DNA from: Planctomycetota bacterium
GTDB taxonomy: Bacteria; Planctomycetota; Planctomycetia; Pirellulales; Thermoguttaceae
Assembly (NCBI GenBank): GCA_029550925.1
Contig: JAKPGL010000024.1
Coordinates: 1-33,994 of the forward strand
Length of the DNA stretch: 33,994 bases
Reading direction: 5' to 3'
Positions 2,658 to 20,942 of this stretch are shown here, piece after piece; within the stretch, counting starts at the first letter, position 1; the number at the start of each line of letters is the position of its first letter. The notes under the pieces are model-generated. The model was given only the letters and a program-made list of their open reading frames with translations. It did not search any database and had not been told where the DNA came from. A program made the translations under genes and the position numbers.

Positions 2658-2894
2658 AGCGAGCGCCTCCTATTTCGTGGAACCGATCCGCTTCCTCGTG
2701 CCGCTTGACTTGGAAAACCTGGTTGGATGAGTTTCTGTGGGCGTACCATTTCATCCGAATGGAGATATCGTTCTTGTCATCCCCGCGAAATGGAGACTCA
2801 AAAAATCGGTAACATTTTAGCCGAATGCAGAAGAAGCTGATTTTAGGGCAAAATTTGCCCAGGATTGCCACTGCCGCTCTAGCGGCATTTCACC

Positions 2895-3010
2895 GTTGTC
2901 ATTCCCGCGAAAGCTCTCAATCCTGGGTCCTGTGAGGCGGCTATGTGGTTATTCCTCCCACGTAGCGGCTGCAAGAAGCCTAGATTGGGCGATTGCACGG
3001 GAATGACAAC
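2895..3010. repeat. 116-bp inverted-repeat element (GTTGTCATTCCCG ends)
   Basis: Bounded by GTTGTCATTCCCG (2895-2907) and its exact reverse complement CGGGAATGACAAC (2998-3010). The interior can fold further, with CTATGTGG facing CCACGTAG around 2941-2965. The ends resemble the GTCATTCCCGCGAAAG-type small repeats found scattered in many bacterial genomes. There is no room for a coding gene. Its right end abuts and shares a base with the MITE-like element that starts at 3010. Confidence 0.55.
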
Positions 3011-3133
3011 TGGAGTTTTGCAAAATGGGCTTGTTCAGGTGTTTGTACACTGTACGTCCCCAAAAAATCCCGAGATTTTTGAAGGTCGGTAGTGTACAAG
3101 ATCGGGGGAAATCTCAAATTTGCAAAACTCCAG
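3010..3133 (+). mobile_element. MITE-like element, copy A
   Basis: A 124-bp element with perfect 15-bp terminal inverted repeats, CTGGAGTTTTGCAAA and TTTGCAAAACTCCAG. Just inside is a second inverted pair, TTGTACACT and AGTGTACAA. It is flanked by TGACAA on the left (3004-3009) and CGACAA on the right (3134-3139), a 6-bp target duplication with one change. A second copy in opposite orientation lies at 19421-19545. The first 41 bases of the two copies differ at one position and the last 50 at two; the middle is more diverged. It is too small to code for a transposase, so it would need one supplied in trans. Confidence 0.8.
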
Positions 3134-3231
3134 CGACAAGGTATTGCATTCGGTTAAAATGTTACACAAAAACCACCTTTCTATGAAGAAATAGGAGGCT
3201 GCTTTGTTTGGCGGAATGAGGTTCCATTTTG

Positions 3232-4008
3232 TCAGAGTCTCTCCCTAGTTACCGGAAAGGTATAGACCAGGGATAATTCTTCGCGCGGCCCTCTGGTTTC
3301 GGCGCGTTTCGGTTGGGGGCTACTACGAGATTTCCTCTGTCCGAGCAACCGCCGAAACCATTCTACCCATGTTCCTTTTGTTTTTTGCGTCGGGGCAAAT
3401 TGACACCGTTCTGGAAGCATCTGGGCCAGACGTGCAAACCGCTCCCAAAAGAACTGCTCCACAGGGGCTTTTTTGGCAAGTCCGTAGAGAGTATGCGGCT
3501 GACAAGGCGATCCACGCCAGGCAATGAGCGAAGCCGGAAAGAAGGCCAGCAGTCGGGCCAAGCCTGTGGGCGTCCATCGCCATAACGAGTGCTCCTCTGC
3601 CGGGGTCTCCTGAGACCGAACACAGACGGAATCGTCGGCTTCACCAGGCGTCTTCTCCCCATGGGCTGATCTGCCCACCACCACCAGCAGGCCGCCCGGC
3701 GCGAGAATACGTTCTATTTCCTGCATCGTTTGGACCGGATCGGCCAGATGCTCCAGCACTTGCAGACACAAGACCGTTCGGGCCGTCGCCTCGGCAAACG
3801 GCAATCTTGACAGGTCGGCCCACCGATCCACCTCGAAACCGCCCCAACCGCCCCCTTCCAGCAGACTCACCGACTTGGCCTCTGCTTGGGCGTTTCTGGA
3901 CGGACCGACCGCCACCGCCTCGAAGCTGAATTCATAGATCGGCTTTTGCAGGTCCAACACCTCGGCCACGGTTTGAAGAAATATTTCGATATCTCGATAG
4001 GCGTCCAT
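3232..4008 (-). CDS. SAM-dependent methyltransferase-like protein (class I fold)
   Basis: About 258 residues with the second half of a Methyltransf_11 domain. WADLSRLPFAEATARTVLCLQVLEHLADPVQTMQEIERILAPGGLLVVVGRS (about residues 60-115) shows the D-x-x-x-L-P-F, V-L-E-H-x-x-D-P and L-x-P-G-G elements. The usual glycine-rich SAM motif I is not obvious; the equivalent region reads FEAVAVGPSRNAQAEAKSVSLLEGG. SAM binding is therefore not assured, and the protein may be degenerate or divergent. The frame runs up to 4164 and into the upstream gene, but ATG 4008 (MDAYRDIEI) with GAGGGAAA upstream is the sensible start. It lies 40 bases after the larger glycosyltransferase and is probably cotranscribed with it. 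Its C-terminus is basic and low in complexity. Confidence 0.65.
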   Translation of the reverse strand: MDAYRDIEIFLQTVAEVLDLQKPIYEFSFEAVAVGPSRNAQAEAKSVSLLEGGGWGGFEVDRWADLSRLPFAEATARTVLCLQVLEHLADPVQTMQEIERILAPGGLLVVVGRSAHGEKTPGEADDSVCVRSQETPAEEHSLWRWTPTGLARLLAFFPASLIAWRGSPCQPHTLYGLAKKAPVEQFFWERFARLAQMLPERCQFAPTQKTKGTWVEWFRRLLGQRKSRSSPQPKRAETRGPREELSLVYTFPVTRERL

Positions 4009-4009
4009 A

Positions 4010-4045
4010 TTTCCCTCACTTCGACAATTTCCCTCACTTCGACAA
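4010..4045. repeat. 18-bp tandem duplication over the methyltransferase ribosome site
   Basis: The 18-mer TTTCCCTCACTTCGACAA occurs twice head to tail (4010-4027 and 4028-4045). On the minus strand each copy carries GAGGGAAA, so the Shine-Dalgarno-like sequence of the methyltransferase gene is duplicated directly upstream of its ATG. It sits in the short gap after the preceding gene's stop at 4049. Confidence 0.85.
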
Positions 4046-4048
4046 AAG

Positions 4049-5965
4049 CTATCCTCCGGGACGGACGACGTAACGGGTTGGTTGGCAGCCTGAACTATGG
4101 GATTGGCCGCCGCTGTCGGTCGGCTCGGCCCGGAGAGCAAGTCGCCTCGAAAATCCCGCCCCATCCCAACGATACAGTTCCACCCTGGCTATTCCCAAAG
4201 CGTTCTCCTGTTGGGAAGGAAAAACTCCTATACACTCTCCGGCAGCCTCTAAGAGGAACCGGATCGTTTTGGCCCGAGCACTTTCCGAGGCCAGTTCCTC
4301 GGATTCGACGACAACATATCCAAGCCGAGGATCGGCTAATACCCCCGCCGATTCCCCATAAAGATAAGTGGTTCGGCCGGAATAGAGGCCCGTCCACCCT
4401 CGGGTATCGACCACGATGGCCTGGGGGTCGGCGTGAAGAGCCAGGTACTCCCCGGCCAACCGATGCCCTAACCGACTCCCGTGTACCCCACCGATTTGGG
4501 TCAGCAGGGAGGCCAACACGGCCGCTCCCAACGGCGTCAAACGCCATCGGCGACCCCTCGGTCCGTTCCCAGCCCCGGTCCTTTCCCCCAATTCAGAGCT
4601 TAGGTTTTCGCCTTTCGGGGCATCCCGGTGCGCAGGATCGGAAGACGACTGTCGCACGAATCGGGAGGATAACCGCCGGGGCGAAAATCGTTTGGCTAGC
4701 CAGCGGCCTACCCGATCCGCCCCGGCCCCGGCTGCTCCGATTCCGCAGACCACCACCAGCACCAGATGCCGGGCTTCCAGATACCCGACCCAAGCCCCGT
4801 ATATGGCAGCCCCTACGAAAACAACGGCTGCGGTAAGCCCTAGAAAAATGGTTTCTGGCGGTATGGGCCGGGGGCGTCGTTGCGGATTTCTCCAGGCATT
4901 CCATAGGCCCACCAAGGCCAGCCCTCCCACCCAATAGCCCCAGACATCGGCCATTTTATGGACACTCCGAAAGCACATACTCCCCCAACCTCGGCGGCGG
5001 ATGCTGACCGTAGGTTCCTTGGCGGCGAAAGACGGCGGCGCTCCATCGGGCAACCGCCAACCGAGCGAATCTTCTGTTTTCGGCGACCGGCCCGTGGGTT
5101 TTGCGGAGGGCAGAGGGGGATTTGGGGAATCGGCCAAGTTCTGTTCCGGAGAGGGCGGCGGCAACGCCAACTTTTTCAAAGGCCCTCCTCCGCCCGCCCC
5201 CGACCAGAGGGACGCCATTTCTCCCAAACCGGCGATTCGAGTCGCCTTCGCATAAATTCCTAGGACGCCTCCGAATCCGATGAGAAACAGGCCGATAGAT
5301 AAAAGAACTTCTCGAAACCGCACAGGCGGTTTCTGTTGGAAAAGAACCACCGTCCAGGTTCCGATCCAAGCCACTGCCGCCGCCAGCACCTCTGCACGAA
5401 CCAAACTCGCCAGCCCCGCCAGAACCCCGCCGGCGGCAACCCATCCAAGGGCCGAGCGAGTTCCCAATCGGTTCATTGCTTCGACCAAAACCAGCATTAC
5501 CCCGGCGGCCAGGGCCAAATGGAGCGAGTCGCTCAATCCATCCACTCCCAACCGGGCAACTTCCGGGAGAGTGCAAAACAATAATGCTGCGCAAATACCA
5601 GGCCATTTCCCCCACCGTCGGCTGGCCAATCGAGCCGTCAGAACAAAGGCGGCCAGCAGGGGCAAACAAGCCGCCAGTTGTACGCTCACCGCCCATGCCC
5701 AAGCCGCTTGCCCACATACCAAAACCACTCCCCTATGGAGCGCCCAAAGCCAAAGGATCCATAGGGGGGCTTCGGGGTGTTGGCCGATCGCCTCGGCCAA
5801 GCCCACCCGGTCGATCACGGCGGCCGATCGGACAAAGCGGACCGCATCCAGGCTGGGTACCGGCGATCGCCAAAGCAGCCATACTTGCAGCCCCACGGCC
5901 AGGCAGCCTACAGCGACGATCCATCCGATTTCTCGGCACCCCCTGCCGGAGAAAGTTTGCCGCAT
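4049..5965 (-). CDS. Large GT-C type membrane glycosyltransferase-like protein
   Basis: A 638-residue polytopic membrane protein. The first periplasmic loop, SLDAVRFVRSAAVIDRVGLAEAIGQHPEAPLW, has the acidic residue and the H-P-x-x-P-L pattern of GT39/PMT-like enzymes. About eight helices follow, including GVDGLSDSLHLALAAGVMLVLVEA. Two proline/serine-rich hydrophilic inserts interrupt the membrane part: about residues 255-330 (near 4975-5200) and about 425-470. They are compositionally unlike the rest and probably face the periplasm or cytoplasm as linkers. The C-terminal 150 residues are soluble, with VVDTRGWTGLYSGRTTYLYGESAG. The ATG at 5965 is preceded by AAGGGG. The methyltransferase-like gene follows on the same strand, so the pair may build and modify a surface glycan. 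Substrate unknown. Confidence 0.7.
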   Translation of the reverse strand: MRQTFSGRGCREIGWIVAVGCLAVGLQVWLLWRSPVPSLDAVRFVRSAAVIDRVGLAEAIGQHPEAPLWILWLWALHRGVVLVCGQAAWAWAVSVQLAACLPLLAAFVLTARLASRRWGKWPGICAALLFCTLPEVARLGVDGLSDSLHLALAAGVMLVLVEAMNRLGTRSALGWVAAGGVLAGLASLVRAEVLAAAVAWIGTWTVVLFQQKPPVRFREVLLSIGLFLIGFGGVLGIYAKATRIAGLGEMASLWSGAGGGGPLKKLALPPPSPEQNLADSPNPPLPSAKPTGRSPKTEDSLGWRLPDGAPPSFAAKEPTVSIRRRGWGSMCFRSVHKMADVWGYWVGGLALVGLWNAWRNPQRRPRPIPPETIFLGLTAAVVFVGAAIYGAWVGYLEARHLVLVVVCGIGAAGAGADRVGRWLAKRFSPRRLSSRFVRQSSSDPAHRDAPKGENLSSELGERTGAGNGPRGRRWRLTPLGAAVLASLLTQIGGVHGSRLGHRLAGEYLALHADPQAIVVDTRGWTGLYSGRTTYLYGESAGVLADPRLGYVVVESEELASESARAKTIRFLLEAAGECIGVFPSQQENALGIARVELYRWDGAGFSRRLALRAEPTDSGGQSHSSGCQPTRYVVRPGG

Positions 5966-18354: not shown

Positions 18355-19413
18355 ATGCGTAAACTTTATCTTGCAAGACAAATGCTTTGCACAGTCGGCT
18401 GCCTGATAGGACTATGGAGCGGGGCATCCGCTCAGGATACCGTCCGCCTAGCCGATCGCACCATTCAGGGAACCGTCAAATCCATGAGTCCTTTGCAGGT
18501 GGTGGTGGAGCACCTCGGCCAGGACACGACCATCCCTGTGAACGAAATTCGGTGGATTACCTTTCAGGGAGAACCCGCGGCGCTAAATACCGCCCGAACC
18601 ACCTTGGCCGGCGGTCGGTATCAAGACGCCCTGGATATCCTGAACGATCCCAAAAAAATCCCGCCCGAACAACTCGACCGAGCAGAACTCAAACAGGATG
18701 TAGAGTATTACAAAGCCTACTGCCTGGCCAAATTGGCTTTAGGCGGTTCGGCCGACATCGCCGAGGCGGGAAAAACGTTGGTCGCCTTCGTTCAAAACAA
18801 TCCCGGCAACTATCACTACCTGGAAGCCAATGAATTGATCGGCGATCTGCTGGTCGCAGCAGGCAAATATAAAGAGGCGGAAACCTACTACAATACCCTG
18901 GCAAAAACTCCTTGGCCTGATTATCAAATCCGCGCAGGCGTGGCCCTTGGACGTCTCGCGCTGGCCCAAAACCGGATCGACGACGCCGAAGGCATTTTCT
19001 CCAAGGTGCTCGCTATTCCAGCCAAAGGTCCCCAGGCCGAACTGTATCGCCAGGAAGCCCAACTGGGCAAAGCTCGATGTCTAGCAGAAAAAGGTAAATT
19101 CGATGAGGCGCGAAAAATCATCGAAGATATTCTCGCCGTAGCGGACGCCGAACACCAAGAACTCCACGCTCGAATCTATACCACCCTAGGAAACATCGAA
19201 CGCAAAGCCGGTCGAACCAAAGAAGCCCTCCTGGCTTTCCTCCATGTGGATCAACTCTACTTTACCAACGGCGAATTGCACGCCGAAGCCTTGGCCAATC
19301 TGGTAGAACTCTGGAACCAACTCCACAAACCCGAACGAGCGGCCCGCGCACGCCAAGTGCTGGAAACTCGATATAAAAACAGCCCTTGGACGAAAAAAGT
19401 CTCCGGCGCATAA
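18355..19413 (+). CDS. Exported TPR protein with small beta N-terminal domain
   Basis: A 352-residue protein. It has a signal peptide, residues 1-26, ending SGASAQ. Residues 27-75 form a small beta domain, DTVRLADRTIQGTVKSMSPL...VNEIRWITFQGEP, like the 'x-V-x-L-x-D-G-x-x-x-x-G-x-V' modules in secreted planctomycete proteins. TPR-type repeats follow to the end (for example ARTTLAGGRYQDALDIL, GDLLVAAGKYKEAETYYNTLA, LALAQNRIDDAEGIFSKVL, LGNIERKAGRTKEALLAFLHV). ATG 18355 has AAAAGGAGAA upstream. It lies 239 bases after the large TPR gene on the same strand. The MITE-like copy B has inserted two bases past the stop codon, leaving the gene intact, and a terminator follows beyond the element. Confidence 0.8.
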   Translation: MRKLYLARQMLCTVGCLIGLWSGASAQDTVRLADRTIQGTVKSMSPLQVVVEHLGQDTTIPVNEIRWITFQGEPAALNTARTTLAGGRYQDALDILNDPKKIPPEQLDRAELKQDVEYYKAYCLAKLALGGSADIAEAGKTLVAFVQNNPGNYHYLEANELIGDLLVAAGKYKEAETYYNTLAKTPWPDYQIRAGVALGRLALAQNRIDDAEGIFSKVLAIPAKGPQAELYRQEAQLGKARCLAEKGKFDEARKIIEDILAVADAEHQELHARIYTTLGNIERKAGRTKEALLAFLHVDQLYFTNGELHAEALANLVELWNQLHKPERAARARQVLETRYKNSPWTKKVSGA

Positions 19414-19420
19414 CTTAGAC

Positions 19421-19545
19421 CTGGAGTTTTGCAAATTTGGGATTTCCACCGATCTTGTACACTACCGACCCTCAAAATCACGGGATTTTTGAGGGTCCTG
19501 TTCCGTGTACGAACACCTGAACAAGCCCATTTTGCAAAACTCCAG
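19421..19545 (-). mobile_element. MITE-like element, copy B
   Basis: A 125-bp element with the same perfect 15-bp terminal inverted repeats as copy A (CTGGAGTTTTGCAAA), inserted in the opposite orientation. It is bounded by an exact 6-bp direct repeat TTAGAC (19415-19420 and 19546-19551), the expected target duplication. The centre forms a further palindrome (CCCTCAAAATC facing GATTTTTGAGGG). It sits between the TPR stop codon and that gene's terminator, so it is likely transcribed as part of the 3' untranslated region and could fold there. Confidence 0.85.
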
Positions 19546-19580
19546 TTAGACCTCTAACAAGTTAAAATCCCGGAAGAATT

Positions 19581-19721: not shown

Positions 19722-20942
19722 TTATTTCGATTTTTCGGCCCGGAGGCATTCTGCCGGGGTGATAATGCCGTCGTTATTCAGATCGTATTTTTGGAACTCG
19801 GCGGCTTTTGTATCGTTCCAATCGGCGGCGAACTCGGCCATGGAGACCTGCCCATCGCCGTCGGTGTCCTTCTGAATGAACCAATCGGGCAGCCCCTTGG
19901 GCAATCGTTCCAGAGGAGTCAGAAACCGGACTCGGCCCGGTTGCCCCGATTTGCTACTGCTGCCAGAAGATCGGGAATGGCTACCCCCACTCGATCCGCT
20001 CCCACTGGATCGGGAAGAACTCGCCGAACTGCCGGAGGCGCTGGAACTAGTACTAGTAGAAGTCCATCCCGAACTTCCCCCGGAACTGCTCGACGAACTA
20101 CCGCCGGAAACCGCTAACTGATTTCTTTCAAACTCCCGGGCGGTCAATTCTTCCAGGGTAATCACGCCGTCGTTATTCCGATCCGCCTTTTCCGGCGAAC
20201 CCCGCATATTTTGCCATTCCTCCCGCTCTAACACCCCGTTTTTATTCGCATCATACTGCCGGAGAAGACTTTGCGCATATTGGCGGACCCGCTCTTCTAA
20301 TTCTTGGCGTTCTCTACTGCCCACAGGAGGACCAGAGCCCCCAGACGGCGAACCGGTTCCCACGCTCCCGGAAGTACCCCCAGGCGAACCGAACCCGGCA
20401 GGTTTAGCTAAACTTTGGGAGGTTTCCCCTCCAAATCCCCTTAAGCCGGAAGAAGAAGGAGTTGGGGCAGAAGCTCCCCCCGACGACGGTGCGCCAGGAC
20501 CAGGTGCTCCACCTGGCCGGGGGCCTTCTCCTCTCGGCACCCCTCCGGGTGGACCGCCCGGCCCGCCTGCTGGAGGTTTTGGTTGCTGCTCACTTTGCTG
20601 AATATGTCGGACCACAGCAGTCCGAAATTCGCCTACCGCAATCGAATGGGAAGGATCCAGACCAGCTTCTTTGGCCATCCGTTCGTAGAGATATCGTCGC
20701 TGGCCCTGGACCTCGTTCGGTTCGATCACTCCGTCCTGATTGGCGTCGAACGAGGCGATCCATTGCTCGGCCCGTTCCAGGCGAAATCGTAATCGGGCTG
20801 CCGGGTCCTCTGGCATATTGCCACGTTCCCGCCACCGTCCCCGTCCGCCCGGACGTTCCTGCGCCCAGGCGATCCCTCCCAAAATCGCTCCCACCGCCAA
20901 GACCAGGAACCAGCAAATTCTCCGGGCCTTCCACAGGGTCAT
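19722..20942 (-). CDS. Exported five-EF-hand calcium-binding protein
   Basis: A 406-residue protein with a signal peptide (MTLWKARRICWFLVLAVGAI, cleaved near AWA-QE). Five canonical EF-hand loops are visible: DANQDGVIEPNE (66-77), DANKNGVLEREE (231-242), DRNNDGVITLEE (254-265), DTDGDGQVSMAE (359-370) and DLNNDGIITPAE (387-398). All keep the D at position 1, G at 6 and E at 12, so all should bind calcium. The loops are separated by a Pro/Gly-rich linker (about 118-210) and a Ser/Gly-rich linker (about 280-335). ATG 20942 follows GGAGGAGTGAGAGG. Located in the periplasm or outside; partner unknown. It lies downstream of the superoxide dismutase gene on the same strand. Confidence 0.88.
   Translation of the reverse strand: MTLWKARRICWFLVLAVGAILGGIAWAQERPGGRGRWRERGNMPEDPAARLRFRLERAEQWIASFDANQDGVIEPNEVQGQRRYLYERMAKEAGLDPSHSIAVGEFRTAVVRHIQQSEQQPKPPAGGPGGPPGGVPRGEGPRPGGAPGPGAPSSGGASAPTPSSSGLRGFGGETSQSLAKPAGFGSPGGTSGSVGTGSPSGGSGPPVGSRERQELEERVRQYAQSLLRQYDANKNGVLEREEWQNMRGSPEKADRNNDGVITLEELTAREFERNQLAVSGGSSSSSSGGSSGWTSTSTSSSASGSSASSSRSSGSGSSGGSHSRSSGSSSKSGQPGRVRFLTPLERLPKGLPDWFIQKDTDGDGQVSMAEFAADWNDTKAAEFQKYDLNNDGIITPAECLRAEKSK

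Follow-up and report, generated by a model that had tools for sequence, protein, structure and literature searches.

A recently amplified MITE family in a draft planctomycete genome and its probable link to IS701-family transposases

Two short, nearly identical palindromic elements lie 16 kb apart in a 33,994-nucleotide stretch of planctomycete DNA (the window), which raises the question of whether they belong to a mobile family and, if so, which transposase would have moved them. The elements and their boundaries are as follows.

19421–19545, + strand: MITE copy B, 125 bp, imperfectly palindromic from end to end and 1.6% diverged from the family consensus
19421–19435, + strand: left terminal inverted repeat of copy B, CTGGAGTTTTGCAAA
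19531–19545, − strand: right terminal inverted repeat of copy B
19415–19420: left target duplication of copy B, TTAGAC
19546–19551: right target duplication of copy B, TTAGAC, exact
3010–3133, − strand: MITE copy A, 124 bp, of the same family as copy B and more diverged, 6.5% from the consensus
3004–3009: left target duplication of copy A, TGACAA
3134–3139: right target duplication of copy A, CGACAA, matching at five of six positions

From two copies in the window to a family in the genome

A preliminary description of this DNA had placed both copies at these coordinates in opposite orientation, with perfect 15-bp terminal inverted repeats and with one difference in the first 41 bases and two in the last 50, and our analysis reproduced each of these observations, the last of them in copy A's orientation. 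Overall, copies A and B are 90% identical; their terminal 15-bp repeats are the same, and most differences fall mid-element, with few near the ends. The perfect 6-bp duplication that had been described is correct for copy B, whereas copy A has the imperfect pair listed above. Copy B starts seven bases after the stop codon of a predicted open reading frame (ORF; 18355–19413, +), with the next predicted ORF at 19722–20942 (−), and copy A is placed between predicted ORFs at 1428–2657 (−) and 3232–4164 (−). When folded, copy B forms a single long imperfect hairpin, with z-scores relative to shuffled sequences of −7.7 as DNA and −7.9 as RNA.

The window corresponds to contig C169 of a genome assembled into 233 contigs (4.9 Mb, 97.5% complete), and while "two copies" describes the window accurately, the genome holds many more. 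Copy B matched all 40 scored places, out of 90 first-look candidates, at 94–100% identity and nearly full length. The 15-bp arm, allowing at most one mismatch, occurs 71 + 66 times in the 4.9 Mb, compared to 0 + 1 for a reversed-pattern control; this excess, together with the genome-wide matches of copy B, excludes chance. We collected 57 distinct copies of 100–150 bp, each with a 25-bp flank on either side, a lower bound that excludes unfetched arms, copies cut by contig ends, copies outside this length range and those with weaker arms. The element measures 126 bp in 38 of the 57, far too short to encode a transposase. Divergence from the consensus has a median of 3.2%, with 28 of the 57 copies within 3%; the value for one copy (L024, 27.9%) is inflated because it was scored in the wrong orientation, and the values of the other copies are unaffected.

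Searching the genome with the ends and aligning the flanks, as had been proposed, thus returned many copies, and the duplications are present. Exact flush target duplications border 39 of the 57 copies (27 of 6 bp, eight of 7 bp and four of 5 bp), so the 6-bp length that had been reported holds for most of the family, with 7 or 5 bp in the others. No exact duplication was seen at 18 copies, nine of which come within one mismatch at 6 or 7 bp, and mispaired flanks matched in only 0.2% (5 bp), 0.3% (6 bp) and 0.1% (7 bp) of 2000 control draws. The duplications are AT-rich, at 79% compared to 54% in the flanks, and among the 27 six-bp duplications T leads at positions 1 and 2 (18 copies each) and A at the last (19 of 27). 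The copies sit mostly between reading frames: among the 49 with enough flank, eight interrupt a joined ORF of at least 200 aa and 26 one of at least 100 aa, compared to 75% and 87%, respectively, of 234 random positions.

A few copies vary in form. In L014 85–210 and L024 1498–1623 (C117), TAC replaces the terminal CTG at one end; the altered end of L014 abuts an end of the second repeat described below, and L024 retains an exact 7-bp duplication. A 141-bp variant (L045 1501–1641, C97) repeats part of its interior close to the tip of the hairpin and is flanked by an exact duplication, TTATTA, suggesting that length variants can still transpose.

Insertions into other repeats and empty sites

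Copy A lies inside a second repeat, which we call MITE2.

2809–3165: MITE2, host of copy A, with inverted ends GTAACATTTTAGCCGAATGCA at 2809–2829 and 3145–3165

MITE2, whose inverted ends read GTAACATTTYAGCCGAATG(C/G)A and which frequently encloses a CTTGTCATTCCCGCG segment, is also seen at about 2743–2800 of the window. This repeat is abundant in the genome, with dozens of ends within the loci examined, and a query spanning copy A and MITE2 gave 353 first-look candidates, compared to 92 for copy A alone. Seven chosen MITE2 copies are uninterrupted at the point where copy A is inserted and thereby provide empty sites, paralogous rather than orthologous ones, in which TTGTCA is intact in five and one base off in two (L066 and L087). 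The site is filled and duplicated both in the window and in contig C187 (L018), either because the two insertions occurred independently or because one composite transposed as a whole.

Across the genome, a MITE2 end lies within about 60 bp of 11 of the 57 MITE copies, compared to 15 of 1001 control windows, a proximity that may be partly indirect because both repeats lie mainly outside genes. Nesting is also seen within the family itself, where a copy at L004 interrupts the end of an older relative, with ACTCCA duplicated. Taken together, the target duplications, the near-consensus copies and the empty sites identify the family as a real, recently amplified MITE, a transposon and not a structured RNA, which bears out the earlier reading of a non-autonomous, MITE-like element with past mobility.

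Beside these copies, a 196-bp hybrid (L016 2260–2455, C223) combines CTGGAGTTTGG ... CAAAACTCCAG ends with a MITE2-like interior and has an exact TTAGAA duplication; single ends similar to those of the hybrid were seen at L065, L066, L068, L074 and L099.

The search for a transposase and the distribution of related ends

The preliminary description had stated that the transposase of the element is not in the window, in agreement with our wider search. A PF01609 profile search of the window's genome (E ≤0.1) gave three matches, none with the ends of this MITE. The match on C34 (L177 1675–2685) is an IS5-family gene with its own ends, GGAACYTCTGAATAAWTCCC by eye; that on C195 (L097) has ends GAGGGTTTCCCG by eye and only a weak IS1182 match (51 bits against a cut-off of 270); and that on C4 (L098) is a fragment of 43 positions, below the cut-off. 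The C34 element as a whole (L177 1331–2870, ends GGAACYTCTGAATAAWTCCC) directly adjoins a truncated end of the present MITE family. Clustering of 332 ORFs near the arms revealed no listed cluster that was transposase-like by the 80 residues shown; 100 of the 137 arm matches were listed, and a full-length element with one-mismatch ends could lie among the rest. No similar DNA was found in phages or plasmids, and no exact 20-mer in IMG/VR.

The same profile scores three intact haloarchaeal IS701 proteins at 47–62 bits and, in its own genome search, an element of the same genus (G002, described below) at 24 bits, so that a close relative should have shown and a more diverged one could be missed. 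Moreover, contigs C10, C42, C172 and C223 end inside a copy of this MITE. Because diverged relatives can be missed and contigs break inside copies, "absent" here means only that the driver was not found in the assembly.

Beyond this genome, the whole element is absent from all 59 other genomes searched, including two of the same genus, while its ends have relatives. The sequence CTGGAGTTTTGC occurs 7 + 12 times in G002 and 5 + 3 times in G001 (same genus) and 6 + 4 times in G074 (same family), and at most four times in total in every other of 99 genomes except G000. G002 holds many 144–149 bp elements with ends CTCGACTTTTGCCATTTT, for which exact 5-bp duplications were found in eight of 25 pairs, compared to 4.9% in a mispaired control, with flanks sharing TTAG. 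Exact 6-bp duplications were found in three of seven pairs in G074, and exact duplications of at least 5 bp in none of one pair in G001. The CTCGACTTTTGCCATTTT-ended elements of G002 form a dense family (loci L126–L143), in places with two within a few hundred bases (L126, L132), and often lie beside a recurring GACAGCCTCTTAG flank.

At greater distance, a 20-mer scan of GTDB 220 contigs returned eight stretches, six of them in the Planctomycetota MAGs JAISXA, VGYL and JAITKH (the last being both G101 and G334); the single matches in Limisphaerales and Shewanella had no closing arm nearby. Arms at no more than one mismatch number 58 + 52, 19 + 17 and 5 + 9 in the three MAGs, with 0, 1 and 0 in the controls. 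Among the pairs of these MAGs and a fourth set, exact duplications of at least 5 bp are rare (0 of 5, 1 of 7, 0 of 2 and 0 of 1). Exact CTGRAGTTYTGCAAA occurs in 16 of 392 genomes drawn from the phylum, as a single occurrence in nine of them; lone exact arms without a close partner were seen in G404, G183, G220, G026, G242, G137, G169, G184, G138 and G254, with weak closing arms at two mismatches in G137 and at three in G404:C113.

MITE families with such ends measure about 126 bp here and about 134, 148, 165, 180 and 240 bp in other Planctomycetota. The occurrence of related ends around unrelated interiors suggests that one transposase lineage may have bred several MITE families in the phylum.

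Several loci were considered as longer elements with such ends. An apparent 1.6-kb element (G326:C10:10383/12014) consists of two MITEs flanking a reading frame, and the arms of another candidate (L130 351–2775) pair with closer partners. No pair of such ends encloses any of the PF01609 loci L204–L233; L230 contains a MITE, and L216, L217 and L226 have single one-mismatch arms.

IS701-family elements with related ends and the rival drivers

The preliminary description had proposed looking for an insertion sequence of full length that shares the MITE's ends. In the window's genome none was found, while in G002, of the same genus, we identified, among loci surrounding PF01609 matches, an intact IS701-family element with related ends (L246 722–2332, corresponding to G002:C130:14421–16031). 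This 1611-bp element has ends CTCGACTTTTGCCATTTTTA and CTCGACTTTTGCCAATTTTT, of the CTCGACTTTTGCC type, and an open transposase gene of 446 aa that matches NCBIfam NF049999 (IS701) at 252 bits (cut-off 170; positions 3–402 of 412) and also Pfam DDE_5. Its ends are identical over 19–23 bp to those of G002's own MITEs of the 148-bp class. An exact target duplication is lacking at this element: the flanks, GAGGTTCTTAG and CTAAAGGAACCTC, are nearly inverted copies of each other rather than direct repeats.

For relatives of this transposase, seven of 117 plasmid records were fetched for reading of the ends. The Lichenicola relative (L263), with two stops in its gene, has ends CTCGACTTTGGCCATT and an exact 5-bp duplication, CTAAG; the Nostoc relative (L265; NF049999, 366 bits) has ends CTCGACTTTATCCATT and the exact 5-bp duplication ATTAG; and the Microvirga relative (L266; NF049999, 352 bits) has ends CTGGACTTTGGCCATT/CTCGAGTTTGGCCAAT and the exact 5-bp duplication CTTAG. 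In the other four, no ends stood out from shuffled flanks.

Ends nearly identical to those of the MITE were found in another planctomycete, JAITKH, where the IS701 copies are decayed. One relic (L174 291–1256, 966 bp) is bounded by arms that match the MITE end at 13–14 of 15 positions. Its fragments match NCBIfam NF033540 (IS701) at E-values of 1.7e-14 and 4.5e-13, under the curated cut-off as fragments, and the middle of the gene is gone, since the fragments abut in the DNA and match positions 15–109 and 283–362 of the 363-position model. No exact target duplication flanks this bounded relic. Locus L155, which coincides with L172 and L253, holds a second relic, 81% identical to the first over 86 residues, that runs into an end matching at all 15 of 15 positions. 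Both relics have about 50 bp of end sequence in common with each other and with the MITEs of JAISXA. On plasmids, the closest relatives of the relics are IS701 elements of haloarchaea, in 23 records; six were fetched and four read at both ends by eye, giving ends CTCAGCTTTGCACG; CTCAGCTTTGAACG; CTCACCTTTGCACG/CTCAGCTTTGCACG; and CTCGGCTCTGCACG, with duplications TAACCAA, ATACTAA, TAACGG and TTAGTCA, in the same order.

Ungapped comparison to CTGGAGTTTTGCAAA gave 13–15 of 15 matches for the relic ends, 11 and 12 for the G002 element, 11 and 12 for Microvirga, 10 for Lichenicola, 9 for Nostoc and 5 for ISHala4; as background, 0.1% of window 15-mers reach 10 of 15 and 0.4% reach 9. IS701-family transposases lie between or beside ends of the MITE's type at L246, L174, L155, L265 and L266. 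The searches returned no intact element whose ends are exactly CTGGAGTTTTGCAAA; near-identical ends accompany only the decayed IS701 genes of the one MAG.

On this evidence, the family is most probably a recently amplified MITE that an IS701-like transposase mobilised in trans, the transposase having since been lost, left out of the assembly or overlooked; the link to IS701 is well supported, and probable for the exact CTGGAGTTTTGCAAA ends. An IS701-family DDE transposase would recognise the CTGGAGTTTTGCAAA ends in trans and make a staggered cut of about 6 bp in the target, with host repair filling the gaps. The autonomous element itself may have been lost, may have fallen out of the fragmented assembly, or may be too diverged for the single profile used. 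A broader proposal, which we consider about evenly balanced, is that CTSRASTTYTGC-type ends mark a branch of IS701 with 5–7 bp duplications that is spread over Planctomycetota, cyanobacteria, alphaproteobacteria and perhaps haloarchaea, and that transposases of this branch repeatedly spawned unrelated Planctomycetota MITE families able to outlive the autonomous element in the same genome.

The length of the duplications bears on this link in several ways. By the 2008 definition, IS701 elements have 4-bp duplications and the end motif ---YACT-Y--YR, although the accessible part of the source (PMC2266710) adds that the IS701 consensus does not represent the whole family and gives three end signatures. 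The MITE departs from that definition in both respects, with duplications mostly of 6 bp and with CTGGAGTTTTGCAAA misfitting the motif by eye. A length of 6 bp is not a unique match to IS701, because the IS701 elements whose duplications we read have 5 bp (NF049999 type) or 6–7 bp (haloarchaeal); it does fall within the measured range of the family, since in the available passages of PMC8024623 transposition of ISGka1 and ISGka2 gave direct repeats of 4–9 bp.

Unlikely, although the strongest of the alternatives, is that another transposase moved the MITE, the IS701 ends merely looking similar and MITEs having inserted beside relic IS701 copies. The missing intact element with exactly these ends, the lack of a clear duplication at the bounded relic, a 6-bp duplication that lies between the IS701 values read (5, and 6–7), and the nesting of MITEs in other elements here (the 11 of 57 near MITE2 ends) are all compatible with such a driver. 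However, similar ends bound IS701 genes independently in the intact same-genus element, in the relic and in three distant bacteria with duplications, and the end sequence common to both relics and to another MAG's MITEs likewise argues against it.

Mobilisation of the same MITE (CTGRAGTTTTGCAAA ends) by an IS1634-family transposase is very improbable. IS1634 elements are described, in the same accessible part of PMC2266710, as having AT-rich duplications of 5–6 bp and ends C-----YT, which CTGGAGTTTTG fits by eye, but the G002 transposase scores 252 bits with the IS701 model and 11.7 with that of IS1634, the Nostoc and Microvirga relatives are likewise best matched by the IS701 model, and the relic fragments have no IS1634 match at E ≤1.

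Finally, a conserved structured RNA, attenuator or terminator at fixed sites, which the marked fold and the position of most copies outside long reading frames might have indicated, and which the preliminary description had named as the alternative should copies stay at orthologous sites without duplications, is refuted as the origin of the family and next to inconceivable as a general explanation, given the duplications, the empty and nested sites, the confinement of the whole element to this genome among those searched (the two same-genus genomes included) and the lack of any Rfam covariance-model match at gathering thresholds in the window. Individual sites may still have a secondary regulatory use.

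Among known systems, IS701 elements of the NF049999 type (G002 L246, Nostoc, Microvirga and Lichenicola) resemble the MITE in their CTSGASTTT-type ends, at 9–12 of 15 bases, and those of Nostoc, Microvirga and Lichenicola also in their short AT-rich duplications, albeit of 5 bp rather than 6; they differ in having a transposase gene, a length of 1.45–1.6 kb and ends that are not identical. For the NF033540 type, the likeness lies in the ends of the JAITKH relics (L174, L155) and in the 6–7 bp duplications of ISHala4-like haloarchaeal elements (L254, L256–L258), whereas the relics are decayed and the haloarchaeal ends match only with a one-base gap. ISGka1 and ISGka2, IS701 elements of Geobacillus kaustophilus, are full-length and, from the available passages of PMC8024623, resemble the MITE in their duplication range.

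The element seems to be of a familiar kind, and the wider family little described: neither an IS701-driven MITE nor this MITE family was found described in the titles and passages of the open-licence literature. Both target duplications and empty sites are in evidence, making this a clean case of a recent MITE burst in the draft genome of a planctomycete. Unrelated MITEs across Planctomycetota would be tied to the IS701 family, the published 4-bp duplication rule would be widened, and the genome would offer a testable case of small parasites persisting after their driver seems gone. A parallel appears in the available text of PMC3119063, where Haloquadratum walsbyi has mobile MITEs for which its genome holds no functional matching transposase; those MITEs are likewise short and non-coding, with terminal inverted repeats, target duplications and a transposase acting in trans, and differ in sequence and host. 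The REP/GTAG palindromes of RAYTs, as portrayed in the accessible portion of PMC3733652, are also multi-copy, palindromic and known in Planctomycetes, but measure 20–40 bp and carry a GTAG tag, whereas the MITE, at about 126 bp, has both target duplications and terminal inverted repeats.
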